Shown here one piece after another: positions 727 to 30,757 of a stretch of DNA of 32,161 bases (positions are counted from its first letter, which is position 1; each line of letters opens with the position of its first letter). The stretch is from the NCBI GenBank assembly GCA_030765845.1, contig JAVCDJ010000052.1, forward strand, positions 1-32,161, in the 5' to 3' direction. A program made the translations under genes and the position numbers. Source of the stretch: Candidatus Stygibacter australis (lineage in GTDB: Bacteria > Cloacimonadota > Cloacimonadia > Cloacimonadales > TCS61). The notes below the pieces were generated by a model. That model had not been told where the DNA came from, made no database searches, and worked only from the letters and a program-made list of their open reading frames with translations.

Positions 727-2991
727 ATGAAAGGCATCAAAATATTTTTAATAATAATAGTTTTTCTGTTAACCTGGCACTCTGGTTTGCAGGCAGATTC
801 TACGGAATTGAAGCTGAAAATCGCTGAGGCGATGGGCAGAGAAAAGGTGGATCTATTGCTTGAGCTTGCTAAGCAGCAAATAGATGAGGATCTGCAAAGC
901 AGTTGGACAAGCGATAGTCTGGCACTTAAGCTTGCGGGTGAATCCCGTTATGTGGGAGGTCAGCGAAAAGCTTTGACCATTGCTGGACGGATCGAGCTCA
1001 CTCGACAAAACTACTGGTCTGCGATTGATTATTTTAATAAAGCAATACTACTTTTGAATAAAGAGAATGATCAACTTGATCTGGGAGTTATAAATAATAA
1101 TTTCGCCCAGGCCTACTCTAAATTAGGCTGGGCAGACAAGGCAAAAGCCAAACTGGAAGAAGCAGAAAAAATCTTCCAGAAACTCGAACCCACCACTGAA
1201 GTTATGCATGAGCTCACGATGACTTACCTTACCTGGGGTACTGTAGAGCTGGAACTGGGTAATTATGAATTAGCATTATCTCGACTATTGAAGGGCATGC
1301 AGGAAGTGGACAAACTGGATGAACCTGAACTGGAAGCTACTATCAAAGGAAATATCGGCAGAGTATATCAATCACTGATGAATCCAGCACTTTCTCTGGA
1401 ATATTACCGTCAGGCACTGGAAGTTCACAAGCAGCTTGATAATAAAAGTGAAATAGCGGTTGTATATGGTAATATGGGAACACTTTATTCTGAGCTTAAA
1501 GATTATGAAAAAGCAAGAGAATATTATGAACTATCTTTGGAAAGCTATCAGCAGTTAGGCAATAATCTGGGTGTAGCTTCAGTATTGATCAATATTGGAA
1601 ATCTGTACTATTATCAGGAAAAATACACCGAAACCCTTGAGTATTACAGTCGGGCAGAGAAATTAGTGGGCGAGATCGGGGCTACTGTCTATCAGGCATA
1701 TCTGATGAACAATGTGGGCATGATCTATGTAGAGATGGGAGAATTTAAGGCAGCAGAGGAAAAATTTGCTGAAGCTTCCAGGATAGCTCAAGAGGTAGAA
1801 TCTCTGGAATTACAGGCAGAAATATATGCTTCTTATGGTGAACTTTTCAAAAAGCAGGGACAATTTGATGAAGCTTTGAGCTATAATGAGAAAGAATCAA
1901 CACTGCGGGACAGTATTTTTGCTGAAACCACTGCTAAGCAGATTGCAGAGATGCAGACTAAGTATGACACTGAGCGCAAAGAGCGGGAAAATAGCCTTCT
2001 TCGCAAAGATAATGAGATCAAGGAACTGGAAATAGGCAGAAAAGAGCTTCAGAGGAACTCTTTATTTGCCATCTCGGGTCTGGTTATCATGCTGGTGATC
2101 TTTGTATATCGGAGATACAGGAGTAAAAAGAAGAGTGCTGAGATACTTTCCACGAAAAATGAATTGATCACTCAGCAGAAAGAGGAATTGAGCGAAACTC
2201 TTGATGTATTACGCAAAACCCAGAAGAAATTGGTGGAATCAGAAAAAATGGCATCTCTGGGAAGTCTGGTTACAGGAGTAGCCCATGAAATAAACACACC
2301 AGTGGGAATAATTATAACAGCTATCAGCAATCTGAGTGACAGGTTGAGTGCTTTGATGGGTAAATATCAGGAAAATAAGATGAAAAAGAGTGATCTGGAC
2401 AGCTTTTTGGGTTATACAGAAAAAACAAGCAATCTGATACTGAGTAATTCCCAGCGAACTGGTGAACTGGTGAAAAGTTTTAAGCGTGTGAGTGTGGATC
2501 AATCCACAGAACAGCGTCGTCAATTTAAATTATGTAATTATATCAAAGATGTCTTGATGAGCCTTGAACCCAAATTCAAGGGTCTTGATCTTGAGATCAA
2601 TATAGATTGTGATGAATACCTGGTATGGAATTCATATCCGGGGATACTTGCCCAGATAATTACTAATCTGGTTATTAATTCATTGGTTCATGGTTTTTCC
2701 GGTGGAAGTGGTGGAAAAATAGATTTTGAGATAAAACGTATTGACAGCAGGCTGCGATTTATCTATCGGGATAGTGGTAAGGGAATGGGAGAAGAGGTGT
2801 TGCAGCATATCTTTGATCCGTTTTTTACAACAAATAAACGGACGGGGACCGGTTTGGGGATGCATATTATCTATAATCTGATAACGCAGAAACTGGATGG
2901 GACGATAGAAGTTGAGAGTGAAGTGGGGAAAGGCTCAGAATTCATTATGGAATTCCCTTTCATGGAAGGAGGATTGAGTGAGCTCGATTGA
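727..2991 (+). CDS. Membrane-anchored TPR sensor histidine kinase
   Basis: The protein senses a signal with tetratricopeptide repeats and autophosphorylates on histidine. It starts with a signal peptide (MKGIKIFLIIIVFLLTWHSG), so I prefer the ATG at 727. A TTG at 676 would add 17 polar residues before the signal peptide. Numbered from 727 (754 residues), TPR repeats cover about 60-410. A coiled coil and one membrane helix (about 445-464) follow. The H-box VAHEINTP has His520, the N-box is near 660 (NLVINSLVHGF), and the G1 (DSGKGMG), F (FDPFFTT) and G2 (GTGLGM) boxes come last. The repeats should be periplasmic and the kinase cytoplasmic. The next gene overlaps by 14 bases, implying coupled translation and a shared pathway. 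The ligand cannot be told from sequence. Confidence 0.9.
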   Translation: MKGIKIFLIIIVFLLTWHSGLQADSTELKLKIAEAMGREKVDLLLELAKQQIDEDLQSSWTSDSLALKLAGESRYVGGQRKALTIAGRIELTRQNYWSAIDYFNKAILLLNKENDQLDLGVINNNFAQAYSKLGWADKAKAKLEEAEKIFQKLEPTTEVMHELTMTYLTWGTVELELGNYELALSRLLKGMQEVDKLDEPELEATIKGNIGRVYQSLMNPALSLEYYRQALEVHKQLDNKSEIAVVYGNMGTLYSELKDYEKAREYYELSLESYQQLGNNLGVASVLINIGNLYYYQEKYTETLEYYSRAEKLVGEIGATVYQAYLMNNVGMIYVEMGEFKAAEEKFAEASRIAQEVESLELQAEIYASYGELFKKQGQFDEALSYNEKESTLRDSIFAETTAKQIAEMQTKYDTERKERENSLLRKDNEIKELEIGRKELQRNSLFAISGLVIMLVIFVYRRYRSKKKSAEILSTKNELITQQKEELSETLDVLRKTQKKLVESEKMASLGSLVTGVAHEINTPVGIIITAISNLSDRLSALMGKYQENKMKKSDLDSFLGYTEKTSNLILSNSQRTGELVKSFKRVSVDQSTEQRRQFKLCNYIKDVLMSLEPKFKGLDLEINIDCDEYLVWNSYPGILAQIITNLVINSLVHGFSGGSGGKIDFEIKRIDSRLRFIYRDSGKGMGEEVLQHIFDPFFTTNKRTGTGLGMHIIYNLITQKLDGTIEVESEVGKGSEFIMEFPFMEGGLSELD

Positions 2992-4300
2992 TAAAGAGCG
3001 GGGATTTGCTGATGCGGGAAATGAGTCCGATGAACTGGTATTTATGGCAGAAGAAGAAGCAGTTGATGTCAAGCAGCAGCGGGATGAAGAGAAATTCTCA
3101 GTTAAAAATAGTGCTGTCATCAAAGCAGGCAGCGATTGGAAAATTCTGGTGGTCGATGATGAAGAAGATATTCATACTGTCACGCATTTGACCCTTGATG
3201 ACTTTGAGTTTGCCGGCAAACAGGTGACGATACTTGATGCCTACTCAGCTGGAGAAGCCTTTGAGCTGATCAAGCAGCAGCCTGATATTGCAATCACATT
3301 GCTTGATGTGGTAATGGAAACCACAACTGCAGGTTTGGATCTTGTTAAGCGGATCAGAGAGGAACTGGAGAATCATTTCATCAGAATAGTTCTGCGAACA
3401 GGTCAGCCGGGATATGCTCCAGAGCGTGATGTAGTGCTGAATTATGATATCAATGATTATAAATCCAAAACCGAATTAACCTCTGATAAGATATTTACAC
3501 TGGTTTCATCCGGTATACGTGCCTATAAATCACTTCTGAGTCTGGAATCATACCGTCAGGATTTGCAGGAAAAGGTGGATGGAGCGGTAGAATCAATCCG
3601 TGAAAAAGACCATATCATTATAAAACAGTCAAGACAGGTAGCGATCAGTGAATTGATATCAAATATTTCACATCAGTGGCGGCAGCCTTTGAATACTGTA
3701 ATGGCATTGATTCAGGATATTGAAATTTGCGGAGAGGAAGAAGAACTGACTATAGATTATCTTACACAGCAAAGTAATAAAGCAATGGGCATCATTCAGG
3801 AAATGAGTAATACAATTGATGATCTGAGATACTTTTTTCATCCAGTAGAGGAATTAGAGGACTTTATTTTGCACGATGTGCTCGCAAGATGTATGAAGCT
3901 GCTGGAACCCACATTAAAGGAAGAGAGTATTATACTGGAAATTAGTGGAGATGAGCAATTGACCATAAAAGGCTATAGCAATGATTATGCCCAGGTAGTT
4001 TTGCAGATAATCAATAATAGCCGTGATGCCTTAAGGGAAAAGGAAATACCAGAAAAGAGGATAAGAATAGATATATCAGAAGACGATGGACAATCAAAAG
4101 TGGAAATAATTGATAATGGTGGCGGGATAACTGAAGATGTGATCGAGCATGTTTTTGAACCATATTTCACAACACACTTCAAGAGCCCGGGCAGAGGACT
4201 TAATCTATATATGTGTAAAATCGTGATCGAAAAAAATATGCATGGCAGCTTAACAGCTGAGAATCGGAAGTCTGGTGCAATATTTACGATCAGGATATAA
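2978..4300 (+). CDS. Response regulator-histidine kinase fusion
   Basis: This 440-residue soluble protein probably relays phosphate from the preceding kinase. Residues 1-50 are acidic and probably disordered. A receiver domain follows (about 52-175), with VVDDEED for the acidic pocket and Asp110 in LLDVVME as phospho-acceptor. After a short helix comes a kinase core: H-box ISHQWRQPLN with His232, N-box QIINNSRDAL, G1 DNGGGI, F FEPYFTT and G2 GRGLNLYM. The start is a GTG at 2978 with an ideal AAGGAGG (2966-2972) five bases upstream, inside the previous gene. There is no DNA-binding domain, so output must be another kinase, a phosphotransfer partner or a protein contact. The only nearby candidate is the GPP34 protein 12 bases downstream. 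Confidence 0.88.
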   Translation: MSSIDKERGFADAGNESDELVFMAEEEAVDVKQQRDEEKFSVKNSAVIKAGSDWKILVVDDEEDIHTVTHLTLDDFEFAGKQVTILDAYSAGEAFELIKQQPDIAITLLDVVMETTTAGLDLVKRIREELENHFIRIVLRTGQPGYAPERDVVLNYDINDYKSKTELTSDKIFTLVSSGIRAYKSLLSLESYRQDLQEKVDGAVESIREKDHIIIKQSRQVAISELISNISHQWRQPLNTVMALIQDIEICGEEEELTIDYLTQQSNKAMGIIQEMSNTIDDLRYFFHPVEELEDFILHDVLARCMKLLEPTLKEESIILEISGDEQLTIKGYSNDYAQVVLQIINNSRDALREKEIPEKRIRIDISEDDGQSKVEIIDNGGGITEDVIEHVFEPYFTTHFKSPGRGLNLYMCKIVIEKNMHGSLTAENRKSGAIFTIRI

Positions 4301-4312
4301 CTGGAGGATGAG

Positions 4313-4972
4313 ATGCAGGAATGCAAACTGAGTATTGCAGAGGAATTCTTATTATTATCATTGGATGATGAAAAGGGTGTAGTGTGCAATCAACCCTTTA
4401 TGGGGATGGAATTTGGACTTGCTGGCGCTGTTCTGATGGAGCTTGCCTTATTAGGAAAAATAAAAGCAGAGCAAAATAGACTACTTGTGATCGATAATTC
4501 TCCCACTGAAAATCAGATATTTGATGATGCTCTGGCAATGATCGCAAATCAGCAAAGTGATGAAGATGCCAAATACTGGGTCTGGAAACTCGGAATCCAT
4601 ATTCAGGAGATCAAAGACTATTTTATTAATCATTTGATCGAATTGGGGATACTGGAAAAGAAAGAAAAGAATATTTTGTGGATATACAAACGGAAATGCT
4701 ATCCTACGATAGATGATAAGATGGAACGGAGAGAAATTGCCCGTATCCGCTCTATTATTCTGGATAAGGTAGAACCCGTACATCGTGATATTGTGCTGAT
4801 CAGCCTGATGCGCTCTTGTAATTTAACAAATCAGCTGTTCACTCAGCAGGAACAGGATAAAGCTGGTGAGAAGATAGAGAAAATTGCCCGTAAGGATTTG
4901 ATAGGACAGGCAGTTTATGAAGCAATTCATGAGATATTGCAAAAATTAAGTGTGCAGCAACTATATTATTAA
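4313..4972 (+). CDS. GPP34 (GOLPH3/Vps74-like) domain protein
   Basis: The 219-residue protein resembles the GPP34 fold of eukaryotic GOLPH3/Vps74, a peripheral membrane protein that binds phosphatidylinositol-4-phosphate. Visible family features are the N-terminal LSIAEEFLLLSLDDEKG, then GLAGAVLMELALLGKI, the strand LLVIDNSPT, and a helical C-terminal half with VWKLGIHIQ and later IARIRSIILDKVEP. There is no signal peptide or membrane helix, so it should be cytosolic or membrane-associated. In bacteria the family is best known from actinobacteria and its role is largely unknown. A GGAGG ribosome binding site (4303-4307) precedes the ATG, and the gene follows the kinase pair by 12 bases, so it is probably co-transcribed. 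A role as output or target of the kinases is inference only. Confidence 0.8.
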   Translation: MQECKLSIAEEFLLLSLDDEKGVVCNQPFMGMEFGLAGAVLMELALLGKIKAEQNRLLVIDNSPTENQIFDDALAMIANQQSDEDAKYWVWKLGIHIQEIKDYFINHLIELGILEKKEKNILWIYKRKCYPTIDDKMERREIARIRSIILDKVEPVHRDIVLISLMRSCNLTNQLFTQQEQDKAGEKIEKIARKDLIGQAVYEAIHEILQKLSVQQLYY

Positions 4973-5106: not shown

Positions 5107-5142
5107 ACTTAGGTTAGTTGAAATATTTAAAAGAGGTATTTG

Positions 5143-8055
5143 ATGATTAAAAAAGGTTTATTAATTATTATTTTACTGCTGATAGTTACTTCGCTTATGG
5201 CAGATCCAAAAATTTATATTGCTTTCTTGTGGCATATGCATCAACCTATATATTACCCAGGTGAAAATGCCCTGGAAACTGATAATGCCGGACATTATGA
5301 TTATTCGATAGAAGATATTCATAATCAGCGCTGGGGTCCCTATACTACCTGGCCATCAGATGCTGTGTGGATGGGGATCAATGCCGGTTTTGAACATTTT
5401 GGCTCTCAAGTTAGCTTTTCTGGCTCTTTGATAGAGAATTTGAATACTTTACAGGCTGGTGGAAACTGGAATTTTTCTAACTGGCAGTCAGGATGGAATG
5501 GCATTGCCGGAGAAACAACAAGCCTGGGAAATCCCAGAATGGATATGGTTTCCATTGGCAATTTTCATCCTTTGCTGGGATTGATTGATTACCGCGATAT
5601 GAGAAGCCAGATCGCTATGCATCGTGACATTGTAAACAGCACCTTTAATGTGAACTCATATTCCCGGGGTATGTTCCCTCCTGAGTGTGCGTTTTCTGAG
5701 AGGATAATCCCCGCCCTTGTGGATGAAGGGATTGAATGGGTGCTGATCGATAATATCCATTTTGAGAGAGTTACAAATAATTATCCCTATACTACCGGCA
5801 GTAATTTATATGAACCTAATCAAGCAGATGTCCTAGAAGATGATCCTGGTGACTGGCTGCAATTAAACGGCTTGTGGGCAGGTTCACAGGTATCTCTGCA
5901 ATGGGCTCATCAACCGCACTGGGTAAAATATATTGATCCAGAAACTGGCGAAGAAAGCCAGATCATGGGTGTGCCGGCTTCCCGCTATCTGGGTAATGAA
6001 GATGGCAGAGGTGGCTTTGGCGCTTTGCAGTATGATACCGTAATGAGCCAGTTTGAACCTTATAACACTGATGATGACCATCCTATATTAATTGTTCTGC
6101 ATCATGATGGTGATAATTATGGTGGTGGATCAAATTCCTATTATAATAATAATTTTGCTCAATTTGTAAGCTGGCTGGGAAGTAATTCAGACAGGTTTGT
6201 TTGCACTACTATCCAGGATTATCTTGATATGTTCCCTCCCGCAACGGGTGATGTAGTACACGTGGAGCCGGGAAGCTGGAGCGGAGCAGCTAATGGGGAC
6301 CCGGAATTTAAGAAATGGAACGGTGATCCTTATAATGACTACAGTCCTGACCGCAATAGCTGGGGCATCATCACAGCAGCGAAGAATATAATATTTAATG
6401 CCTTAGATAATAATCCCGGAGCACAGCAGGTTCAAGATGCCTGGCGTATGCTGCTTACGGGTGAAACAAGCTGCTACTGGTATTGGGACGGCTCTCAGAA
6501 TGGTATCTGGGACAGTCATCCTGCCCGGGCAGCCAATATGGCAGTCAATGCAGCCCTGCCCTATGTGAATGGCGCTGCAGATGCCACTCCCCCCACGATC
6601 TACCTGCCGCAAAGGGAACCGTATAATCCCGGTGGAACTGAATGGAATGTATCCATGAGCCCTGACTTCACTGTCTGGACTTATGTTTATGACCATAGCG
6701 GATTGCAGGATGTGGTTCTCAAATATCGTCTGGATAATGACGGCATAAATGATGATCTCACCAGTGATAATGAGCTTTATGCTGGGGGTGCAGATGTGGG
6801 TAACTGGATAGAACTTGCCATGACAGGCCAGGATGAGCCTTCAGAAACAGATCCCCAACCACTCTATAAAGCCATGCATTACGAAGCAGAGATCAGTGAA
6901 TATAACGAAATCCTGCTGGATTACTATGTGGAAGCTATCGATAATGAAGGCAATGTGCAGAAAAGCGTGATCCAGCACGTATGGATAGGAGATGGCACTG
7001 GTGGGGGACAGGGTGGATATGGTTATGTAAGCTGGCTGCCGGTAAGTCCCGCAATGGAAGATTCCATCATTATCACAGTAGCAAACACCAGCATGGGTGC
7101 TGCCCTGCATTGGGGAGTTAATGATTTTAATTTGCCAGCAGAAACTTACTGGCCCAACGGAACTGTGCTATATAATAATATTGGACCTGCCTTGGAAACT
7201 CCGATGATCGGACCGGATGAGGATGGAAATTTGATCCTTGTATTAGGCCCCTTTGATTCTCCAGTGCAGCAGGTGAATGAAGTAAATTTTGTGATCCACT
7301 ATTATGACGGTAGTTGGGATAATAATAATGGTAATGATTACACAATAACGATATCTGGTGGTGGAGGTGGTAGTTTTGTGATAGATGGACAATTAGATGC
7401 TGGTGTGCAATTGCTGACAGCTAATGATGAACTGGAATTATATGCAGATTTTTCAAGTACAGAGCTTTATGTGGCAGCAACTTCTGCTATGGAATTAGGG
7501 GAAGACATATTTATTTTAATAGCAGATAATCCCGGCAATATGGTTTCTGCCCCCTGGGCCAAAAGCGGACAGGTAGCTGACTGGGACGTTTTTCTGGCTG
7601 GAGAAAGCACTAATGGCTGGAACGGCTGGTTTGACCAGACAGCTTCTTCACAATCTCAGCAAAGCAGTGTTCTGGAAGGAGTGATCAATCTCAGCCAGTG
7701 GAATAATCCAGAATCGCTTTACCTTTGCGTAGCTTCTTATCAAACTCAGGACGGTGGAAGTTTGCAGCAGCAGTCACCAGCAGGTGATGGCAATGGAAAT
7801 ATTGAAAGCACTGAATATATAAATTATCAATTTACAGGATCTCCTTCTTATGGCGATATTGATGGTAATGGGATAGTAGAAAGTTATGATGCTGCTCTGG
7901 TACTGCAATACTACGTGGGAATGATCAGCGATTGGGAACCCTGGCAGCTTATTGCAGCTGACGTGGATGGCAATAGCCTCGTGGAAGCCTATGATGCCTC
8001 TTTGATCCTGCGCTATGGATTAGAAATAATCGACCATTTCCCGGTTGAGGAATAA
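5143..8055 (+). CDS. Secreted glycoside hydrolase family 57 protein with dockerin-like C-terminus
   Basis: Probably a secreted alpha-glucan-active enzyme (amylase or glucanotransferase type). The ATG at 5143 has AAGAGGT five bases upstream and gives 970 residues. Residues 1-20 are a signal peptide. The catalytic domain (about 21-480) shows HMHQPIY (31-37) of GH57 region 1, PPECAFS with candidate nucleophile Glu181, and LHHDGDNYG with candidate acid Asp322. About 490-620 looks Ig-like, 625-740 resembles a carbohydrate-binding beta-sandwich, and 745-895 resembles a DOMON/CBM9-type module; these three calls are by general character only. Residues 903-970 carry two EF-hand dockerin repeats (GDIDGNGIVESYDAA and ADVDGNSLVEAYDAS) and end FPVEE. 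The peptidase at 11090-12664 has the same tail. Substrate is inferred from the family. Confidence 0.85.
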   Translation: MIKKGLLIIILLLIVTSLMADPKIYIAFLWHMHQPIYYPGENALETDNAGHYDYSIEDIHNQRWGPYTTWPSDAVWMGINAGFEHFGSQVSFSGSLIENLNTLQAGGNWNFSNWQSGWNGIAGETTSLGNPRMDMVSIGNFHPLLGLIDYRDMRSQIAMHRDIVNSTFNVNSYSRGMFPPECAFSERIIPALVDEGIEWVLIDNIHFERVTNNYPYTTGSNLYEPNQADVLEDDPGDWLQLNGLWAGSQVSLQWAHQPHWVKYIDPETGEESQIMGVPASRYLGNEDGRGGFGALQYDTVMSQFEPYNTDDDHPILIVLHHDGDNYGGGSNSYYNNNFAQFVSWLGSNSDRFVCTTIQDYLDMFPPATGDVVHVEPGSWSGAANGDPEFKKWNGDPYNDYSPDRNSWGIITAAKNIIFNALDNNPGAQQVQDAWRMLLTGETSCYWYWDGSQNGIWDSHPARAANMAVNAALPYVNGAADATPPTIYLPQREPYNPGGTEWNVSMSPDFTVWTYVYDHSGLQDVVLKYRLDNDGINDDLTSDNELYAGGADVGNWIELAMTGQDEPSETDPQPLYKAMHYEAEISEYNEILLDYYVEAIDNEGNVQKSVIQHVWIGDGTGGGQGGYGYVSWLPVSPAMEDSIIITVANTSMGAALHWGVNDFNLPAETYWPNGTVLYNNIGPALETPMIGPDEDGNLILVLGPFDSPVQQVNEVNFVIHYYDGSWDNNNGNDYTITISGGGGGSFVIDGQLDAGVQLLTANDELELYADFSSTELYVAATSAMELGEDIFILIADNPGNMVSAPWAKSGQVADWDVFLAGESTNGWNGWFDQTASSQSQQSSVLEGVINLSQWNNPESLYLCVASYQTQDGGSLQQQSPAGDGNGNIESTEYINYQFTGSPSYGDIDGNGIVESYDAALVLQYYVGMISDWEPWQLIAADVDGNSLVEAYDASLILRYGLEIIDHFPVEE

Positions 8056-8059
8056 AAAT

Positions 8060-8461
8060 ATGGATCTTCTGGAATTCCCTAACTGCAAACAATATGATAA
8101 CGGACGTTTTCGGCTGCCGAATAAAGTCAGAAAGCAATTTGAAAGCTGGCGGGTGAAACAGCTTGTGATCATACCAACGGAAAATAATAAACTCAAACTG
8201 ATGCCAGCAAGCTGGTGGGAAAGAATGAAAGCTGAAGAAAAAAAAGAAATACCAGTTGATTTCCCAATAAGACCTCAGTCTCTGACAGCAACATTTCTGG
8301 AGCTGCATCCAGAATTAATTACATATCTGGGAGCTACAGAAAATCTCCATTTTAAGGCTAAAGAAAAATACTATCTTCTCTGGAATGATGCAACCTATAG
8401 TCGCGAAAATGAAATTATGAAAGAGCAAATACATAAAATGTATCATGGAGTAAATAAGTAA
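8060..8461 (+). CDS. MraZ/SpoVT-AbrB-like protein
   Basis: This cytosolic protein of 133 residues begins MDLLEFPNCKQYDNGRFRLP. The segment DNGRFRLPNKVRKQF followed by LVIIP and KLKLMPASWWERM matches the pattern of the SpoVT-AbrB/MraZ fold (D-x-x-GR-x-x-x-P-x-x-R, then a strand and a W-containing helix). The second half (YLGATENLHF, YYLLWND) looks like the degenerate second repeat of MraZ. MraZ proteins bind DNA upstream of the division cluster, but no such cluster is here, so this is at most a relative and its target is unknown. I choose the ATG at 8060 over an upstream TTG at 8045. A GAGGAAT precedes it, overlapping the end of the GH57 gene, so translation is probably coupled. Confidence 0.55.
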   Translation: MDLLEFPNCKQYDNGRFRLPNKVRKQFESWRVKQLVIIPTENNKLKLMPASWWERMKAEEKKEIPVDFPIRPQSLTATFLELHPELITYLGATENLHFKAKEKYYLLWNDATYSRENEIMKEQIHKMYHGVNK

Positions 8462-19141: not shown

Positions 19142-20914
19142 TTAGTGTTTGTGGGTAACTGCTTTCACGCAATCACCACTAAATTTGCTGCGTTCAAAGT
19201 AGTTAGTGTGGAGAAGTTTGTGAGCCTTGGGAGAATTTGGTTCACCGAGGAAATCAGCATAAGCTTTCATTACTTCTGAATTTGAGTGTGAAGTCCGCTT
19301 TGCCAGACCAGCATCTTCCTTATAAAGACTCTGTCCACGACGGGCACGGTCAGCAATACTAGAGCCAAAAGGCTGTCCACCGCCACCAACACATCCACCG
19401 GGACATGCCATGATCTCGACAAAGTGGAATACTTCACCAGCAACAATGCGTTCCATAAGTTTACGAGCATTACCCAAGCCATGAGCAACAGCAACGTGGA
19501 GCGGTAATTCACCGCCACCAGCGAGAGGAACCACAAGGTCAGCTTCTTTGATACCAGCCATTCCACGAACAGGCATCAGATTAAGATCAGCCATTTCAGT
19601 TCCTGAAAGTACTGCATAAGCTGTTCTTACAGCAGCTTCCATCACACCACCAGTAGCACCAAAGATAGTGGCAGCACCAGTATATTCACCAAGAAGGTTA
19701 TCAGCTTTTTCTTCCGGGAGGTTTTTGAAATCAAGACCAGCTTCTTCTACCATGCGGATAAGTTCACGTGTGGTGAGTACATAATCCACATCCTGATATC
19801 CGCTATCGTTCATTTCAGGGCGTTGAGCTTCAAACTTTTTGGCTGTGCAAGGCATTATTGAGACACATACTATTTTAGAAGGATCAATACCTTCTTTTTC
19901 AGCAAAGTAAGTTTTTACCATAGTACCAAACATCTGCTGAGGTGATTTACAGGTAGAAACGTTTTCCGCTACGCAGGGGAAATATGTTTCCATGAATTTG
20001 ATCCAGCCAGGTGAGCAGGAAGTGATCACTGGTAATTTACCACCGGTTTTAACGCGGTTAATAAGTTCAGTGCCTTCTTCCATAATGGTAAGATCGGCAG
20101 AAAAATTAGTATCAAATACACGGTCAAAACCCATCCGACGAAGAGCTGCGTACATCTTACCCACAGTAACCTCTTCAGGGTTCATCCCGAATTCTTCACC
20201 GAGAGTAGCACGTACAGCAGGAGCTTCCTGAACAACTACGTATTTTTCTGGATCTAAAAGTGCATCCCATACTTCATCAATATGAGTTCTCTCGCGCAAT
20301 GCACCCACTGGACAATATACGGTACATTGACCGCAATTAACGCAGGGGCTGTTTGCCATACCCTTATCAAAGGAAGTAGTGATAGTAGTTTCAAAGCCAC
20401 GACCATCAAGAGTAAGAGCAAAAACTGTCTGAGTTTCAGCGCAAACTGTTATACAGCGACCGCAATTGATACATTTATTAGGATCACGAATAATTGAGGG
20501 GCTGGTATAATCAACTGGTTTTTTAACCAGCAGAGACGGGAGCTCAGAAGTCTGAATTCCCAGATGATATGCCATATCCTGCAGTTCGCATTTATTATTT
20601 TGCACGCATGTGGGGCAAACCACATCATGATTGCTTAAGATCATTTCCACAAGGGTTTTTCTTAAGCCTCTAAGTTTGTGACTATTAGTAGTAACCTTCA
20701 TATCTTCCCAAACGGGAGTACAGCAGGCACGCTTGATAGGTGATTTTTCTATTTCCACTACGCATACGCCGCAATTTGCTGTGGGCGGCAGGTCCGGGTG
20801 ATAACATAAAGTTGGAATATTCTTTTCTGCTTTTTTGGCAGCAGAGATGATTGTAGTCCCTTCGGGAACCTGAACCTCAATACCATCTACTGTGAGGTTT
20901 ATCATCTTAGACAT
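19142..20914 (-). CDS. hndD: [FeFe] hydrogenase catalytic subunit HndD
   Basis: Reduces protons to H2 or oxidises H2 at the H-cluster. I take the ATG at 20914, because GGAGG lies just upstream; the ATG at 20926 lacks a site and its codons contain that GGAGG. Over 590 residues the order is: [2Fe-2S] ferredoxin domain (C37, C48, C51, C64/65), His-Cys [4Fe-4S] (H96, C100, C103, C109), two [4Fe-4S] clusters (C148-C158 and C191-C201), then the H-cluster domain. Its ligands are C300 in TSCSPGW, C356 in MPCTAKKFE, and C504 and C508 in MACPGGCVGGGGQP. The Ser after C300 is usual in HndD-type enzymes. It is last in an operon with an NADH module, so it should couple to NAD(H), possibly with ferredoxin. 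Confidence 0.95.
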   Translation of the reverse strand: MSKMINLTVDGIEVQVPEGTTIISAAKKAEKNIPTLCYHPDLPPTANCGVCVVEIEKSPIKRACCTPVWEDMKVTTNSHKLRGLRKTLVEMILSNHDVVCPTCVQNNKCELQDMAYHLGIQTSELPSLLVKKPVDYTSPSIIRDPNKCINCGRCITVCAETQTVFALTLDGRGFETTITTSFDKGMANSPCVNCGQCTVYCPVGALRERTHIDEVWDALLDPEKYVVVQEAPAVRATLGEEFGMNPEEVTVGKMYAALRRMGFDRVFDTNFSADLTIMEEGTELINRVKTGGKLPVITSCSPGWIKFMETYFPCVAENVSTCKSPQQMFGTMVKTYFAEKEGIDPSKIVCVSIMPCTAKKFEAQRPEMNDSGYQDVDYVLTTRELIRMVEEAGLDFKNLPEEKADNLLGEYTGAATIFGATGGVMEAAVRTAYAVLSGTEMADLNLMPVRGMAGIKEADLVVPLAGGGELPLHVAVAHGLGNARKLMERIVAGEVFHFVEIMACPGGCVGGGGQPFGSSIADRARRGQSLYKEDAGLAKRTSHSNSEVMKAYADFLGEPNSPKAHKLLHTNYFERSKFSGDCVKAVTHKH

Positions 20915-20936
20915 ATTTTCCTCCATTTCTATTTTT

Positions 20937-22496
20937 TTATTTTAATTTTTTAGTAAAATCTGCTCTAAAATGTTCCAGAGCACTCTTCACAGGCATCACA
21001 AGGCTTTGACCCAAAGCGCAGAAAGATGTATGGAACATGGTATCTGCGATAACTATCATGTTATCAAAATCTTTTTCTGTTCCTTCACCTTTTCTGATCT
21101 TAGAGATCAATTGATAAAGCATCTCATTTCCATTAGCACACGGTGAGCACTTGCCACAGCTTTCATGACGGAAAAATCTGATCACTGAATAAAGCAATTC
21201 TACTATATCTGCTCTTTCATCCATCACCAGAATGGCACCTGATCCCAGAACAGCTGCATATTCACGCAGGCTGTTATAGTCCATGTTCACATCAAGGCGT
21301 TCCGCTGGAAGAAATACTCCAGCAGCTCCACCAACCAGAGCAGCCTTAAACTGATGCCCTTCTTTTATTCCACCGCCAAATTCGTCAATAATTGTTCTCA
21401 ATGAAGTTCCCATATCCACTTCACAGAGTCCTGGCAGATTCACGTCACCCATGATAGTGAAAACCTTTGTGCCATTACAACCTTCCGGTCCATAATCGGC
21501 AAACCATTCAGCTCCATTAGTAATGATGCCGGGAACATTGGCAATAGTTTCCACATTATTCACAACTGTAGGTAATTTCCATGCACCTTCCACTCCTGGG
21601 AATGGTGGTTTACTGCGAGGGTTACCGCGATTGCCTTCCATACTTTCTATAAGTGCTGTTTCTTCTCCACAAACATAAGCTCCAGCACCGATTTTAATAT
21701 AAATATCAAGATCAAAACCGCTTTCAAAGATATTCTTACCCAAAAGACCATATTCATAGGCATCTTTGATAGCTATTTCCAGTCTACTAATGCAAAGTTT
21801 ATATTCACCACGAATATAAATATATGCTTTAGTGGCTCCTACTGCAAAAGATGATATCATTACACCTTCCAGCAGTTTGTGAGGATCTCCTTCCATGATC
21901 AACCGGTCTTTAAAAGTTCCCGGTTCACCTTCATCGGCATTGATCACAAATAATTTCTGCTTCCCCTGAATAGGAGCAGTGAAAGACCATTTGAGACCTG
22001 TTGGAAAACCTGCTCCACCACGACCACGCAAGCCAGAGGCTTTCACTTCATCAACTATCTGTTCGGGCTTCATATTCAGCAGGGCTTTTTCCCAGGCTTC
22101 ATAACCACCAACAGCCAGATAGTCATTTATATCTTCTGGATTGATCTTACCGGAATTTTCCAGTACTATCCTGTTTTTATAATTGAAATCATAATGTTTT
22201 TTAAGAGGAGCTTTAAGGGTTAAGCGACTAACCGGACGTCCCTTCAAAAAGTGTTCGGTCACTATTTCAGAAATGTCTTCTTTCTGCAGGTTCACATAAG
22301 TGATCTGATCAGGATATACCGTCATACTCACACCAGTACCGAAAAGTCCCAAAGTACCGGTTTCCAGAATATTTATCTCATCTGAGAGATTATTTTTCTG
22401 TAATTCGCTGCGTAATAACGCTTCTAATTCTTTAACGCCTGCGGACAGGGAGGTGTCATCGATACCGATAAGAACATGACTGCGATAAAATTTCAT
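20937..22496 (-). CDS. hndC: HndC, NuoF-like NADH/FMN subunit, copy 1 (hydrogenase)
   Basis: Binds FMN and NAD(H) and passes electrons to the hydrogenase. The 519 residues show the FMN/NADH glycine motifs GRGGAGFP (158-165) and GAGAYVCGEETAL (270-282), and the [4Fe-4S] ligands C447, C450, C453 and C493 (HESCGKCSPC, SFCALGQ). The N-terminal thioredoxin-like domain (about 5-95) is recognisable by ETGTLGLFGTG and FLKGRPV. It has no cysteine: the family's TGC-x-G-x-C is TGTLGLF here. The protein also ends without the two-cluster ferredoxin tail seen in many HydB-type homologues. Its start shares one base with the hndA stop. Copy 2 at 28697-30256 has equal length and is mostly identical. Confidence 0.94.
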   Translation of the reverse strand: MKFYRSHVLIGIDDTSLSAGVKELEALLRSELQKNNLSDEINILETGTLGLFGTGVSMTVYPDQITYVNLQKEDISEIVTEHFLKGRPVSRLTLKAPLKKHYDFNYKNRIVLENSGKINPEDINDYLAVGGYEAWEKALLNMKPEQIVDEVKASGLRGRGGAGFPTGLKWSFTAPIQGKQKLFVINADEGEPGTFKDRLIMEGDPHKLLEGVMISSFAVGATKAYIYIRGEYKLCISRLEIAIKDAYEYGLLGKNIFESGFDLDIYIKIGAGAYVCGEETALIESMEGNRGNPRSKPPFPGVEGAWKLPTVVNNVETIANVPGIITNGAEWFADYGPEGCNGTKVFTIMGDVNLPGLCEVDMGTSLRTIIDEFGGGIKEGHQFKAALVGGAAGVFLPAERLDVNMDYNSLREYAAVLGSGAILVMDERADIVELLYSVIRFFRHESCGKCSPCANGNEMLYQLISKIRKGEGTEKDFDNMIVIADTMFHTSFCALGQSLVMPVKSALEHFRADFTKKLK

Positions 22497-22951
22497 TATT
22501 CGCCTCCCTTATATGATTTAATTATTTTTTCCAGTTTTTCTTCTGTAAGATCACCATATACATCTTCATTTATCATCATTACCGGGGCATTACCACACAC
22601 ACCCAAACAGGCACATAATTCCAGTGTAAACAGCCCGTCGGTAGTGGTTTCACCTATTTTTACATTCAATAATTCTGCCAGTTTGATAAGCATATTTTCG
22701 GAACCACGATGAAAGCATGGTGGGGATTCACATAATCTGATTATGTTCTTACCGCGAGGTTTAGTGCTGAACATGGTATAAAAGGTCAGCACACCGAAAA
22801 TATGGGAAGGTTGAATGTTAAGATATTCTGCCACCTGATGCACTGTTTCTTCTGAGATATAGTGCTGGGGGTCAATATCCTGGATCTCATGCAATATATA
22901 GATGAGATTCTCTTTTTCCGGAGTATATTTACCGAAAATCTGTTCGTACAT
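22496..22951 (-). CDS. hndA: HndA, NuoE-like [2Fe-2S] subunit, copy 1
   Basis: Small electron-transfer subunit of the NADH module, with a thioredoxin-like [2Fe-2S] domain. The 151 residues contain a helical N-terminus (LIYILHEIQ, VAEYLNI) and FGVLTFYTMFSTKPRG, typical of NuoE. All four cluster ligands are present: C74 and C79 (LCESPPC) and C115 and C119 (CLGVC). So this copy keeps its cluster, unlike the HndB and HndC thioredoxin-like domains beside it. The gene lies 21 bases after hndB and overlaps hndC by one base (TAATG). Confidence 0.95.
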   Translation of the reverse strand: MYEQIFGKYTPEKENLIYILHEIQDIDPQHYISEETVHQVAEYLNIQPSHIFGVLTFYTMFSTKPRGKNIIRLCESPPCFHRGSENMLIKLAELLNVKIGETTTDGLFTLELCACLGVCGNAPVMMINEDVYGDLTEEKLEKIIKSYKGGE

Positions 22952-22972
22952 AATTAATCTCCGATTATTTTT

Positions 22973-23338
22973 TTATTTGTCTGTGGATACCACATAGTCA
23001 TTTACTACCCGACCATTAACTATGTGTTCTGCCACGACTTTTCTTGCTTTGGCAATATCCATATTACCATACGTTATCGCAGGTTTGCCACTCTCAATTA
23101 CATCTACTACGGGTTCCATTGATGATAATCCTTTTTCACCTGTCTGGGTCACAATGACATCTTTGATACCACGCTGGGTTACTTCATCAAGGATAGCTTT
23201 CATCACATCACGAGCTCCCATTGCTATCCCGGAAGTTCCCATTCCAACCACAACTTTAAAACGATAGTCACTGTCACGTAACTTCATATCCTGTTGTGCC
23301 TTCTCCCGGATTTTTCTTAATTCATCCAGTGTCTTCAT
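22973..23338 (-). CDS. hndB: HndB-like subunit without cysteines, copy 1
   Basis: HndB is normally a small thioredoxin-like [2Fe-2S] protein of the NAD(P)-reducing hydrogenase. This 121-residue protein aligns over the whole family pattern (VVVGMGTSGIAMGAR, VIVTQTGEKGLSSMEP, KPAITYGNM, EHIVNGRVV), yet it contains no cysteine. The usual TCGIA is TSGIA (Ser36) and the usual TGCxGxC is TGEKGLS (Glu68, Ser72). It therefore cannot bind the cluster and is probably structural or regulatory. An AGGAGG just before the ATG at 23338 decides the start; a frame extension to 23404 would run through the promoter. It is the first gene of the operon. Confidence 0.9.
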   Translation of the reverse strand: MKTLDELRKIREKAQQDMKLRDSDYRFKVVVGMGTSGIAMGARDVMKAILDEVTQRGIKDVIVTQTGEKGLSSMEPVVDVIESGKPAITYGNMDIAKARKVVAEHIVNGRVVNDYVVSTDK

Positions 23339-23375
23339 AAATCCTCCTGATTTATTTATTTTATTGAATATTTTT

Positions 23376-23416
23376 ATACTATGAACTATATATCTAATAG
23401 ACAAACCAATCGTCTA
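23376..23416 (-). promoter_or_regulatory. Promoter and palindrome of hydrogenase operon
   Basis: On the minus strand TTGTCT (23404-23399), a 17-base spacer and TAGTAT (23381-23376) form a moderate sigma-70-type promoter, about 35 bases before the hndB ATG. An inverted repeat TAGAC-N9-GTCTA (23398-23416) overlaps the -35 box, the right place for a repressor. The formate dehydrogenase operon has a different palindrome at the same place. Confidence 0.45.
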
Positions 23417-23526
23417 AATATTTGGCAGACATCAATCTATAATTCTTTCTTTCAGTTAAAACTCCTTTACACTTCTATCACTATTTTATTAAAATCCAAT
23501 ACCGAAAAGCAGAATTTTACCGTCAA

Positions 23527-23572
23527 GTGAAAAAATTTATAACCTACAAATTTTATATGAAATTTATTTCAC
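23527..23572. promoter_or_regulatory. Nested palindromes between hnd operon and fdhD
   Basis: TGAAAT-TT-ATTTCA (23558-23571) has perfect six-base arms and fits TGA-N8-TCA, the core of Rex operators (TTGTGA-N8-TCACAA), though the outer bases match poorly. A larger near-palindrome joins GTGAAAAAATTT (23527-23538) with AAATTTATTTCAC (23560-23572). A further ATTCA-N5-TGAAT lies at 23606-23620. A redox regulator of Rex type would make sense for NADH-linked hydrogenase, but the AT-rich sequence makes chance matches likely. Confidence 0.3.
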
Positions 23573-23691
23573 GGTCAGAGTATAGATATAATTTTGGTGA
23601 TGGTTATTCAAAAAATGAATTGCTTTAATTACATAATAGTTGCCTGATAACGTGCATTGATTTGAATTGACTCACTAAAGACGAGGTAATT

Positions 23692-24465
23692 ATGGATGAG
23701 ATAAGGGCATTAAAGGAAATTAAGAAATACCACAATGGCAGGTTTGAAATGCTTACCGATCTTGTGGTGCGTGAAATATCTTTCACCATGAATGTGAATA
23801 ATTGCAGACTGGTAGCAATAGCCTGCTTGCCAGAAAATTTACCGGCTCTGGCATTAGGATTTTTGTTTTCAGAAGGGTTGCTGCTAAATCAAAAAGAAAT
23901 ACTTGATAGTGAATATTTTCCAGCAGAAAACCTGATCAATTTTAAACTGGATATCCCAGAAGAGAGAATACAAAACTTCTTTCTGACTGGGGAAAAAACT
24001 TCTGGTTGCGGTTCTACATTATCCTCTGCCCTATCGGGGACCAAAAAGGCTTTCTCTGAGATGAAAATTGAGGCTGAAAATATTTTACAGCAGATGCGCA
24101 AATTTCAGCAGGAATCTGCTCTATTCAAGCAAACTGGAGGAGTACATAGTGCCGGGCTTGTGAAAGATGATGAGATTGTGTATTATGCAGAGGATATAGG
24201 CAGACATAATGCTGTGGATAAAGTGGCTGGCATGGCTCTGATGAGCCAGAGTGATTTGACGAGTTATTATCTGATCTGCAGTGGCAGGATATCATCCGAA
24301 ATCGTCAAGAAATGCGTAAGACTTGGTATTCCGCTCATTGTATCACAATCAGCAGTAACTTCTGAGGCTATACGTCTGGGTTGGGAATATAAAACTTTTC
24401 TAATGGGTTTTACCCGGGGTAGAAGATTTAATCTTTATACTGGGATTGAAGAGGATATTTTTTAG
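23692..24465 (+). CDS. fdhD: Formate dehydrogenase accessory sulfurtransferase FdhD
   Basis: FdhD carries sulfur from a cysteine desulfurase to the molybdenum cofactor, which is needed for active formate dehydrogenase. The 257-residue protein has the family's LPENLPALALGFLFSEG, TSGCGST, GGVHSAG, AEDIGRHNAVDKV, CSGRISSEIVKK and SQSAVTSEAI segments. In the Cys motif only the first cysteine remains (C106); the position of the second is Thr109. In E. coli the first of the two is the essential one, so activity is plausible. GAGG precedes the ATG. The gene is convergent with mobA, overlapping by four bases, and serves the formate dehydrogenase encoded nearby. Confidence 0.94.
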   Translation: MDEIRALKEIKKYHNGRFEMLTDLVVREISFTMNVNNCRLVAIACLPENLPALALGFLFSEGLLLNQKEILDSEYFPAENLINFKLDIPEERIQNFFLTGEKTSGCGSTLSSALSGTKKAFSEMKIEAENILQQMRKFQQESALFKQTGGVHSAGLVKDDEIVYYAEDIGRHNAVDKVAGMALMSQSDLTSYYLICSGRISSEIVKKCVRLGIPLIVSQSAVTSEAIRLGWEYKTFLMGFTRGRRFNLYTGIEEDIF

Positions 24466-25037
24466 ACTATTTTCTGCAGATCTCTTTGAGTATTAATATT
24501 ATAGAAATTATTTATATATCTGGTTTCGAAATCAAGAAAGCCAGCTTTTGATCTGGCATAAAAACTACGCACAGAATAATTACCCTTTTTTAGACATTCT
24601 TCCAGAAACGGCAGATTTGCCGTGGAATAAATAGCATGTAACGGTTCGATTCCTTCAGCATGTTTAGGAACCAGGATATCTAACATACTGTTTCGATATA
24701 CAGCAATCTGGCGAAGTATCACATTTGCGTTCAGATAGGGCATATCGCAGGCGAACACAAAAACTGCATCAGTGTGAGCATATTTCATGGCAGCATGAAT
24801 TCCTCCCAGAGGACCACAATTGATAAATTCATCTTTCACAATCTGCAGAGAGGGAAATCTGCTTATAATTGCTTCTTTACTGGTAGAGATAATAATATTT
24901 TCAAAGATGCTCTCCAAAAGCGTCACCTGTTTATCGATCAGGTAATTCCCCTGGATCTTGATCAGAGATTTCTCCCGCTGGATCCTGGTATTTTTTCCAC
25001 CAGCAAGAATTACTGCGGTTATATTTTTTATTTTCAT
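24462..25037 (-). CDS. mobA: Molybdenum cofactor guanylyltransferase MobA
   Basis: MobA joins GMP to molybdopterin to make the guanine dinucleotide cofactor that formate dehydrogenase uses. The 191 residues show the nucleotide-binding start AVILAGGKNTRIQREKSL, GPLGGIHAAM and the metal-binding ACDMPYL. The canonical MG after the Arg of the LAGG loop is IQ here, a deviation, but the conserved Arg and Lys remain. There is no Shine-Dalgarno before the ATG, and a hairpin ends nine bases upstream. It is the last gene of the formate dehydrogenase operon, so its expression may depend on readthrough. Length is normal. Confidence 0.88.
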   Translation of the reverse strand: MKIKNITAVILAGGKNTRIQREKSLIKIQGNYLIDKQVTLLESIFENIIISTSKEAIISRFPSLQIVKDEFINCGPLGGIHAAMKYAHTDAVFVFACDMPYLNANVILRQIAVYRNSMLDILVPKHAEGIEPLHAIYSTANLPFLEECLKKGNYSVRSFYARSKAGFLDFETRYINNFYNINTQRDLQKIV

Positions 25038-25046
25038 AATAAAATC

Positions 25047-25076
25047 AATACTGCCCCGAATTTTCGAGGCAGTATT
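25047..25076 (-). terminator. Terminator-like hairpin between focA and mobA
   Basis: On the minus strand AATACTGCC...GGCAGTATT forms a nine-bp stem (arms 25068-25076 and 25047-25055), extended inside by CGAA/TTCG after one mismatch. GATTTTATT follows directly, then the mobA ATG. It could terminate most focA transcripts or attenuate mobA. It may equally protect the 3' end of the upstream mRNA. Confidence 0.6.
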
Positions 25077-25088
25077 AAGTTTTATATC

Positions 25089-25946
25089 TTACTTAGATTT
25101 TTTAACGTAAATCCACCAGTAAACCATAGCACACAAAATTCCACCACCTACAAAGTTACCAAGAGTAACTGAAATCAGGTTCTCAGTAAAGAATGTACCC
25201 CAGTTAAGTTTAGCTAAAAGATCAGCAGACTTTCCTGAAGCTTCTACAGCTTTTGGAAATGATTGAGAGAAGATACCGGCAGGGATAAAATACATATTCG
25301 CGATAGCATGCTCAAATCCAGAAGTTACAAAAGCCATGATCGGGAAGAAGATAGCAAAAATTTTTCCGCCAATATCTTTGGCAGCAACAGCCATCATAAC
25401 AGCGAGGCATACCAGCCAGTTACAACCAATAGCTCTAAAGAAATACATCAAGTTATGAGAAGCTCCACCATCTACAGTAGCAGCAACTTTGCCATAAGCG
25501 ATATTAATAGCTGATCCACCAACATCACCACCGGTTAAACCACTCATTTGAGCAATCATCCAGGCAAGGAATATAGAACCTACAATGTTTCCAAAATAAA
25601 CAATAACCCAGTTACGCAGAAGCTGACCGAGCGTGATGTCCTTATTCATTAAACCAATCATCATCAGGTTATTACCAGTCCAAAGTTCTGAACCAGGAAT
25701 TATAACGAGCATAAGCCCCACTGAGAATACAGCACCGATGAAGAATTTCTTCAGCCCGAATAAAGCTGTTGTTCCACCAATAGTCCAGCCAGTACCCACA
25801 ACAGTGGCAAGATGAGCAGCGAAACCGATGAATACTCCAGCTAAAATACCGAGTACAAACAGTTTGATAATGCTGTTACCAGCCTTTGCCTTGCTTACCC
25901 CAATAAACGCATTGGATAATTCTTTGGGTGTTAAAAAATTATTCAT
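25089..25946 (-). CDS. focA: Formate channel FocA (FNT family)
   Basis: Pentameric inner-membrane channel for formate (or a related small anion). The length (285 residues) equals that of E. coli FocA. Six membrane helices are visible. The key family residues are present: Thr90 in the omega loop (SELWTGNNL) and the pore His213 in GFEHAIANMYFIPAG. AAGGAGA precedes the ATG. It lies between the formate dehydrogenase and mobA genes. That context favours formate over nitrite or hydrosulfide as substrate, and links it to formate export or uptake during syntrophic growth. Confidence 0.93.
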   Translation of the reverse strand: MNNFLTPKELSNAFIGVSKAKAGNSIIKLFVLGILAGVFIGFAAHLATVVGTGWTIGGTTALFGLKKFFIGAVFSVGLMLVIIPGSELWTGNNLMMIGLMNKDITLGQLLRNWVIVYFGNIVGSIFLAWMIAQMSGLTGGDVGGSAINIAYGKVAATVDGGASHNLMYFFRAIGCNWLVCLAVMMAVAAKDIGGKIFAIFFPIMAFVTSGFEHAIANMYFIPAGIFSQSFPKAVEASGKSADLLAKLNWGTFFTENLISVTLGNFVGGGILCAMVYWWIYVKKSK

Positions 25947-25980
25947 TCTTTTTCTCCTTTTCTTCCTTTTCTATTTTTTT

Positions 25981-28671
25981 TTAGGAAATTTTTCTTATTT
26001 TTGCAGCGCAAACTTTATATTCCGGTATCTTGGCAATTGGGTCAATTGCCGGATTGGTAAGACGATTTGCAGGTGATTCTTTATAATGGAAAGGAATGAA
26101 GATCACACCTGTGGAAATACGTTTGGTAACGAAAGCAGGAGCTGTGATCTCCCCTCTACGGGTAGCAATTGCAATAACTTCGCTATTACCAATGCCCATT
26201 CTTTCTGCATCTTCCACAGAGATCATCACCATTGGACCTGCCAGGTTATTTAATCCCTGAGTCTTTCGGCTCATGGTTCCTGTATGGAATTGCTGCAATA
26301 CTCTACCAGTAGTAAGGATCAGTGGATATTCTTCATCAGGTAATTCATCCGGCTCTTTAAATGCTATTGGGCTGAGCAGACCTTTACCTCTGGCAAATTT
26401 ATCCTTATGTAAATATGGCGTGCCAGGATGTTCTGTATTAGGACAGGGCCACTGTAAACCAAATCTGCCAACTCTATCCCAGGTGATGCCACCATATTGA
26501 GGAGTGAGCTGGTTGATCTCGTCTGTGATGTCCCTGACGCTTTGATAATTCCAGTCTGAACCCATAGCATTAGCTATCAATTGAATGATTTCCCAGTCAT
26601 TTTTCACACCTTGCGGTGGTTCGATGATCTTATTTATCCGCTGCACTCTTCTTTCAGTATTAGTGAAGTGCCCATCTTTTTCTGCATAAGCAGCAGCAGG
26701 CAGTATCACATCAGCATATTCAGCAGTTTCTGTGATGAACATATCCTGCACGACCATGAAATCTACTCTTTCAAAGGCTTTGATCACATGAGTCTGATCA
26801 GGATCGGAAAGGAAAGGATTTTCACCCATCACATAGATAGCTTTCACTGTGCCATCATAAGCACCATCGATCATTTCTGTGATTGTGATACCTACTTTAT
26901 TATCCAGTTTACAATTCCAGGCTTTTTCAAATTTCTCCTGTATAGCCGGTAATGTAACATTCTGATAGCCGGGATATACATTGGGAAGTCCACCCATATC
27001 GCAGGCACCCTGCACATTGGATTGACCACGCAGAGGATTTACGCCACCGCCTTCTACACCCAGGTTACCGCAAATCATTTGCAGATTGGCAGTTGTCCAG
27101 ACATTATCTCTACCCGTAGTATGCTGAGTGATACCCATAGCATAAAAGAGAGAAGCTGTTTTTGCCTGTCCAAACAATTTAGCAATAGCACGCAGAGTAT
27201 CGGCTTTTACGCCGGAAATTTTCTCTACATTTTCTGGAGAATTTCTATCGAGCATAATTTCAGCTTTGAATTCCTCAAAACCTTCCAGACGATTGGCAAC
27301 ATATTCCTTATCTTCCCAGCCATTTTTCAATATTTCCTGCATCATACAGTTCATCACAGCAACGTCAGTTCCCGGACGATGAGCAGCATAAATTTCAGCA
27401 TAATCAGCCATGACGATCTTTTTAGGATCAATTACGATAAGCTTGGAATTGCCATCTCGCACTGCCTGCTTAATACGGGCAGAAATTACGGGATGAGCAG
27501 CTGAAGTATCAGAACCGATAATCAAAATCACATCTGCTTTCTTGATTCCGGCAATATCATTTGTCATAGCACCACTACCTAATGAAGCAGCCAGACCGGC
27601 TACTGTAGAGCTATGTCAGAGACGGGCACAATGATCTACGTTGTTTGTGCCTACCTCCTTTCTGATTAATTTCTGAAACGCAAAATTCTCTTCATTTGTT
27701 ACTTTCGCAGATGCCAGACCCACGATAGAATCACTACCAAATTCTTTTTTTATAGATGTAAATTTGCTGGCAACCAGAGCAATAGCTTCTTCCCAGCTTG
27801 CTTCTCTGAACTTGCCATCTTCTTTGATCAGCGGTGAGGTAATTCTTTCTTCACTTTGCACAAAATCAAAACCATAGCGACCTTTCACGCAGAGCATGCC
27901 ATTATTTGTTGGTGAGTCTTCCACGCCGGTAATTCGGACTATTTTATCCTGAGTGCGATCAATATGAATTTCCAGGCGACAGCCTACTCCGCAGTAAGGG
28001 CACACGGTTTCGACTTTATCCAGCTCCCAGGTTCTGCCGGCTCCAATCGCTCTTTTATCAATAATACAGCCAACCGGACATAATTGAACACATTCTCCAC
28101 ATTGCACGCAAGTAGATGAACCCATGGGCAGATCAGTGTCAAATACTATCTTGGTTTCATAACCGCGATTACCATAATTGAGCACTTCATTGACTACTGT
28201 GTGGTTACACCCTACAATACATCTGCCGCAATTGATACATTTTGAGCGGTCAACTACTATAAATTCACTGGAATCATCGATTTCGTAATCATCATCATAA
28301 AGATCAAAACTCGATTTGGTGATGCCCAGATAATAGGCAGCATCCTGCAATTCACAATTGCCATTCTGTTCACAGGCAAGACAATCATGTCTTCCTGAAG
28401 AAAGTGCCAGATCAATCACTAATCTTTGAGCATCCATAACCTGTTCAGAATTAGTGAATACTTTCATACCATCGGTTACGGGCAGATTACAGGAAGTTTT
28501 AAGTCCCGGTGTTCCTTCCACTTCAACTACGCAAGCACGACATTTGGCTGCTTTACCTGTTTTCTCATGAAAACACAGGTGAGGAATATAGATATTATTC
28601 CTTAATGCAACCTGCAGAACCTGCTCTCCCGGAGAAGCTTCATAAGCTTTTCCATTTAGATAAACTATCAT
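25981..28671 (-). CDS. fdhA: Selenocysteine-containing formate dehydrogenase catalytic subunit
   Basis: Interconverts formate and CO2 at a molybdenum (or tungsten) bis-MGD site. The frame is interrupted by one in-frame TGA (27616-27618), read here as selenocysteine 352 in VDHCARL-U-HSSTVAG, the catalytic position of the family. A SECIS-type hairpin follows. The full product is 896 residues. In order: [2Fe-2S] domain (C33, C44, C47, C61), His-Cys cluster (H95, C97, C100, C106), two [4Fe-4S] clusters (C145-C155, C188-C198), the FDH [4Fe-4S] cluster (C224, C227, C231, C261), then the molybdopterin domains to the C-terminus. GGAGG precedes the ATG. It follows NADH module copy 2, so it should be NAD-linked and cytosolic; it has no Tat signal. 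Confidence 0.95.
27587..27618 (-). promoter_or_regulatory. UGA selenocysteine codon and bacterial SECIS hairpin
   Basis: The UGA is at 27616-27618. Twelve bases later on the minus strand a hairpin GUAGCC-GGUCU-GGCUGC (27603-27587) has a six-bp stem (one U-G) and the loop GGUCU. The E. coli fdhF element, as I know it, has the same GGUCU loop at the same distance from its UGA. SelB with charged tRNA-Sec would bind here. The flanking frame continues in register and encodes conserved formate dehydrogenase residues on both sides. Confidence 0.9.
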
Positions 28672-28696
28672 ATAGCTATCCTCCAGTATATTTTTA

Positions 28697-30714: not shown

Positions 30715-30757
30715 AATTACTCTCCGTTTAGTTTTTATTTAGTTCTTAATTTAATTC

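Follow-up and report, generated by a model that had tools for sequence, protein, structure and literature searches.

The stretch of DNA analysed here (the window, 32,161 nucleotides) is contig C52 of the 3.8 Mb genome of Candidatus Stygibacter australis, which is in 278 contigs. It carries two histidine kinase genes, here called HK1 and HK2, followed by the gene for a GPP34 (GOLPH3-like) protein and by two further genes on the same strand:

727..2991, + strand: HK1, with a signal-peptide-like N-terminus, a TPR domain, one transmembrane segment (residues ~446-464) and a histidine kinase
2978..4300, + strand: HK2, with a GTG start, a receiver and then a kinase core
4301..4312, + strand: 12-base gap between HK2 and GPP34, with the Shine-Dalgarno sequence GGAGG inside
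4313..4972, + strand: GPP34 (GOLPH3-like) protein of 219 aa (Pfam PF05719, AlphaFold2 model, Foldseek)
5140..8055, + strand: GH57-family protein with a signal peptide and a C-terminal dockerin-type domain
8060..8461, + strand: small protein of unknown family, after the GH57 gene in the window and in genomes G089 and G083

HK1 and HK2 overlap by 14 bases (2978-2991); the open reading frames of 727-4972, this overlap and the 12-base gap are all as given in a preliminary description of the locus, and Pfam bears out the gene make-up proposed there, namely a TPR sensor kinase, a receiver-kinase and a full-length GPP34. Because of the tight spacing the three genes probably form one transcription unit; a promoter and terminator scan at the cluster ends gave no useful site.

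HK1 matches TPR_12/TPR_1, HATPase_c (75.9 bits) and, weakly, HisKA (21.1 bits, under its cut-off). Its phosphoacceptor motif has His520 in VAHEINTP, and the N, G1, F and G2 boxes are intact. The TPR part is predicted to be periplasmic, since a signal-peptide-like N-terminus is combined with a single transmembrane segment near residue 446. HK2 matches Response_reg (30.8 bits) and HATPase_c (62.6 bits), with Asp110 in LLDVVM and a lysine in YKSKT in the receiver and His232 in ISHQWRQPLN in the kinase core. By motif comparison the H-box, the N and G boxes and the receiver Asp and Lys are intact in the four orthologues. Pfam finds neither a DNA-binding nor an Hpt domain in HK2, in agreement with the earlier reading of it as a receiver-kinase lacking a DNA-binding domain, and neither a DNA-binding output domain nor a response regulator with an output domain anywhere in the cluster, the HK2 receiver being fused to a kinase.

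The GH57-dockerin gene adjoins GPP34 in two of three relatives (75-85% identity) and is followed by the small-protein gene in three of the four genomes bearing the three-gene block, making it a possible fourth member of the block. The small protein has no Pfam or NCBIfam match and no convincing relative among solved structures; weak relatives occur in other genomes of the order, and its N-terminal GRFRLPNK motif is, in our view, reminiscent of AbrB/MraZ-type DNA-binding proteins. Elsewhere in the window (19142-31120) are two adjacent sets of flavin/iron-sulphur NADH-type and hydrogenase/formate-dehydrogenase-like subunits, including near-duplicate proteins of 519 aa, ~150 aa and ~120-140 aa.

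Family and predicted fold of the GPP34 protein

The protein is the one GPP34 copy found in its genome and matches PF05719 with 150.5 bits (cut-off 29.1) over positions 1-201 of 201. The AlphaFold2 model, calculated from an input alignment of 31 Cloacimonadota GPP34 sequences, has a pLDDT of 82 and a pTM of 0.83. Its predicted fold is that of GOLPH3: the significant PDB matches in Foldseek are GOLPH3 and Vps74 only (GOLPH3 9qpq, E=7e-10; Vps74 2zih, E=1.5e-7), with probability 1.00 and a TM score (query) of 0.64-0.75 for 9qpq, 3kn1 and 2zih. The model is thus consistent with the GPP34 assignment, for which the preliminary description had pointed to the fold as a deciding feature.

The hydrophobic hairpin of GOLPH3 inserts into membranes. 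Its counterpart in the bacterial proteins, a putative hydrophobic/aromatic beta-hairpin (an ILWxF..RRYP-like stretch), is conserved in most of alignment A1, and the loop after it (126-137) has a pLDDT <50. The PI4P-binding residues of GOLPH3, W81, R90, R171 and R174 (PMC13408441), align with Q27, A37, Q98 and K101 of the window protein; three of the four are changed and the basic K101 alone is similar, in positions which define eukaryotic PI4P effectors and not the Pfam family PF05719. Lipid binding through the eukaryotic PI4P pocket is therefore unsupported, and lipid binding cannot be transferred directly from GOLPH3 because these residues are mostly absent. With the hairpin stretch conserved and the PI4P residues changed, a membrane role of the window protein is plausible and PI4P recognition is not; its site of action is probably the membrane, reached by a route other than that pocket.

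Conservation of the three-gene block

GPP34 is present in 30 of 125 Cloacimonadota genomes. Full-length relatives of HK1 and HK2 occur in four of the 125, from two genera, and lie directly upstream of GPP34 in all four, so that the search for the same gene order in relatives that had been proposed for this locus found it in every genome with both kinases. The HK1/HK2 overlap is 14, 14, 14 and 11 bases and the gap before GPP34 12, 12, 12 and 9 bases. Identities to the window proteins fall together, being 89, 78 and 67% for HK1, 84, 70 and 65% for HK2 and 90, 73 and 63% for GPP34. That order, overlap and gap are conserved among four genomes from two genera whose proteins are 63-90% identical indicates at the level of sequence that the arrangement is more than chance. 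All three genes are under purifying selection, with a dN/dS of ~0.07-0.11 where synonymous sites are unsaturated. In the GPP34 tree the window protein groups with its two relatives (support 100, starred) within a mainly Cloacimonadota set (support 83). A few uncultured Cloacimonadota thus always encode this sensor-kinase pair with a GOLPH3 relative, and the link between these kinases and GPP34 is confined to one clade.

Neutral synteny from common descent, with no functional link between the three genes, is a very unlikely explanation in our judgement. It could draw on the small number of genomes, four and all related, and on the GH57 gene alongside, which is also kept in three of them. Against it, synonymous sites are near saturation, and genes farther out vary among the four while the HK1-HK2-GPP34 block stays.

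GPP34 and STAS, RsbW and SpoIIE genes in other genomes

To place the window in its family, GPP34 loci were taken from a scan of 84,980 species genomes, in which the best 80 of 313 loci were used as ranked by similarity to Cloacimonadota sequences, and from further sampling in the phyla to which one Victivallales, one Desulfonatronum and one alphaproteobacterial genome belong. Dropping relatives of >=80% identity and one doubtful match left 92 loci. GPP34 above cut-off was found in 3/299 in Pseudomonadota and 2/297 in the phylum of Desulfonatronum, too rarely for separate statistics.

A STAS domain is adjacent or fused to GPP34 at 16 of the 92 non-redundant loci (17%), versus 2.2% of control genes at least four positions away within the same loci (Fisher p=2e-7), in a count made on loci which share ancestry, with open frames scored by composition as gene calls and with profiles built from these same loci and checked by Pfam on samples. 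Over 2,000 random within-locus picks the mean was 6.9 and the maximum 13; since partner-switch genes tend to lie in clusters, this control errs on the conservative side. The STAS label is scattered over the GPP34 tree with 11 changes, of which at least seven are forced by starred branches, gain and loss being inseparable. About three quarters of GPP34 loci are without a partner-switch neighbour, and two annotated plasmid GPP34 genes, from the cyanobacterium Chroococcidiopsis and from Streptomyces, have no signalling neighbours. Kinases adjoin GPP34 at 5 of the 92 loci against 2.5% (p=0.12), where HtpG, which shares the ATPase fold of histidine kinases, was not scored as a histidine kinase and HK1, though matching the RsbW profile, was not scored as RsbW. 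With no enrichment, we reject the idea that GPP34 genes in general stand next to kinases. The earlier proposal that GPP34 may be the output of a kinase pair is partly supported: the pairing is conserved in the window's clade and finds no support as a rule for the family at large.

STAS genes lie directly beside GPP34 in alpha- and gammaproteobacteria, Truepera, Dadabacteria, Kiritimatiellae and Victivallales. Within Cloacimonadota, GPP34 is the last gene of a SpoIIE-RsbW-STAS run in two genomes (G003, G038), and in two others (G071, G079) it follows an ABC_sub_bind gene and has SpoIIE or RsbW-like genes in its vicinity. In the phylum containing Victivallales the two domains are joined in single-chain STAS-GPP34 fusions:

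L246:2377-3453
L250:3420-4451
L256:5619-6668
L259:1739-2821
L134:1952-2965

STAS is N-terminal and GPP34 C-terminal in the five proteins, all of which retain the SSAGLR serine motif; Pfam, run on three of them, gives 57-79 bits for PF01740 and 134-152 bits for PF05719. A fusion model shows two confident domains joined by a low-confidence linker (pTM 0.70), which leaves a fixed STAS-GPP34 interface unsupported.

Several other fusions and neighbours of GPP34 were observed. A Truepera genome (G137) encodes a fusion of GPP34 and cytochrome P450 (L279:4711-6699; PF00067 193 bits, PF05719 129 bits), and in a Defluviicoccus genome (G134) GPP34 has a C-terminal multi-transmembrane extension (L275:5848-7218, L276:2212-3387, L278:5950-7152), followed after 9-12 bases in L276 and L278 by a gene for 495 aa, the L276 copy of which is a multihaem cytochrome c by Pfam. 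In L035, L036 and L056 GPP34 ends an MCE/MlaE/MlaF-type lipid-transport run and is followed by a DHFR-like gene, the MlaE protein of L035 bearing an N-terminal STAS domain. A glycosyltransferase family 25 gene stands directly after GPP34 in L082 (PF01755), L083, L109, L111 and L116; eukaryotic GOLPH3 retains Golgi glycosyltransferases. In genome G060 a receiver of the HK2 type and a SpoIIE-like phosphatase are joined in one protein (L300:5020-6291).

The STAS enrichment and the five fusions lead us to read GPP34, for part of the family, as an output module gated by signals. What the sequences show is a tie between some bacterial GPP34 proteins and signalling switches, mostly of the STAS/RsbW/SpoIIE type and in some cases by fusion; in the window's clade the kinase pair appears to occupy the place that the partner switch holds elsewhere. 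By Pfam and gene neighbourhood no STAS, RsbW or SpoIIE gene lies beside GPP34 in the window's cluster, so the evidence from other phyla reaches the window protein by family analogy only and is indirect support for its being a signalling output that works through protein contact. Genes of STAS, RsbW and SpoIIE type are carried elsewhere in the same genome, away from GPP34; one operon there (L296:5079-8220, contig C235) is made of receiver-SpoIIE, STAS and receiver-HD genes.

Proposed role of the cluster and relation to known systems

The reading that we favour, and to which we give roughly even chances, is that a membrane signalling pathway runs from HK1 to HK2 and, by contact switching, to GPP34 as its output, a membrane adaptor; this would be a clade-specific version of the wider link to switches. 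HK1 would use its TPR domain to sense some condition in the periplasm, and would autophosphorylate and hand the phosphate to the receiver of HK2, a transfer suggested by the intact residues. The state of HK2 would then switch GPP34, which has no receiver of its own, by direct contact, and GPP34 would serve as a peripheral adaptor, held to the membrane by the conserved hydrophobic beta-hairpin, that either recruits a client to the inner membrane or releases it there. Every one of these steps, the contact between kinase and GPP34 included, is something we infer beyond the sequence evidence.

Two other readings give GPP34 a different position. It may be co-transcribed or co-regulated with the phosphorelay and work independently, an unlinked response regulator being the target of HK2; we regard this as possible, if somewhat doubtful. 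HK2, itself a kinase, needs a downstream receiver and the cluster encodes none, and the genome has other receiver proteins, for example the receiver-HD protein of L296 beside STAS and SpoIIE genes, whose own receiver shares 52% identity with the HK2 receiver. An independent GPP34 fits poorly with its position 9-12 bases from the kinases in all four kinase-bearing genomes and with its fusion to a signalling domain elsewhere. GPP34 could also stand upstream, as a membrane or lipid sensor subunit which modulates HK1 and HK2. Accessory sensor genes often adjoin kinases, and Cloacimonadota GPP34 often comes after an ABC_sub_bind (PF04392) gene, the binding protein of which may be sensory, in a neighbourhood that also has an NMT1-type gene and SpoIIE. 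We hold an upstream position to be unlikely: in partner switches STAS usually acts downstream, and GPP34 is C-terminal to it in the fusions, while the P450 and multi-transmembrane fusions look like an effector or adaptor role.

Under the output reading, the GOLPH3-like proteins of bacteria may be effectors under signal control. The target described for partner switches is a sigma factor or is unknown, the latter for the STAS switch proteins SypA, RbaV and HmpV, and GPP34 is unmentioned in the review of these systems (PMC8256260). The natural STAS-GPP34 fusions offer a concrete candidate target class for STAS switches and a bacterial setting for GOLPH3-type adaptor regulation without PI4P. More speculatively, and at less than even confidence, part of the bacterial GPP34 family could be signal-gated peripheral-membrane effectors and one among the missing targets of STAS partner switches, with histidine kinase pairs having taken over the input in the window's clade and eukaryotic GOLPH3 recruitment possibly derived from such an adaptor. 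In the literature collection searched, no paper links GPP34 with STAS or with operons, and a looser search of it likewise brought up nothing relevant. Each part of the cluster belongs to a known family; what we did not find in print is a connection between bacterial GPP34 and signalling switches, of which the window cluster is a clade-specific form.

Bacterial GPP34 proteins are nearly unstudied, the experimental work found being that on SCO4440 of Streptomyces coelicolor, a GOLPH3-like protein tied to cell-envelope and cell-wall phenotypes (PMC12402492). SCO4440 is a bacterial GPP34 like the window protein, but its partner is a D-Ala-D-Ala carboxypeptidase gene, not kinases or STAS proteins (PMC12402492). 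With eukaryotic GOLPH3 and Vps74 the window protein shares the full-length family match, the predicted fold and, probably, the hydrophobic beta-hairpin, whereas identity is ~20%, the PI4P residues differ and the gene is part of a signalling cluster. The parts of the STAS/RsbW/SpoIIE partner switches of SypA, BtrV, RbaV and HmpV (PMC8256260) adjoin or are fused with GPP34 in other phyla, while the window cluster contains none of the STAS protein, RsbW-type kinase and SpoIIE phosphatase. With an orthodox two-component phosphorelay of TPR sensor kinase and receiver-kinase it has in common intact His, Asp and ATP-binding motifs; it differs in that, instead of a DNA-binding response regulator or an Hpt protein, the output position is taken by GPP34.
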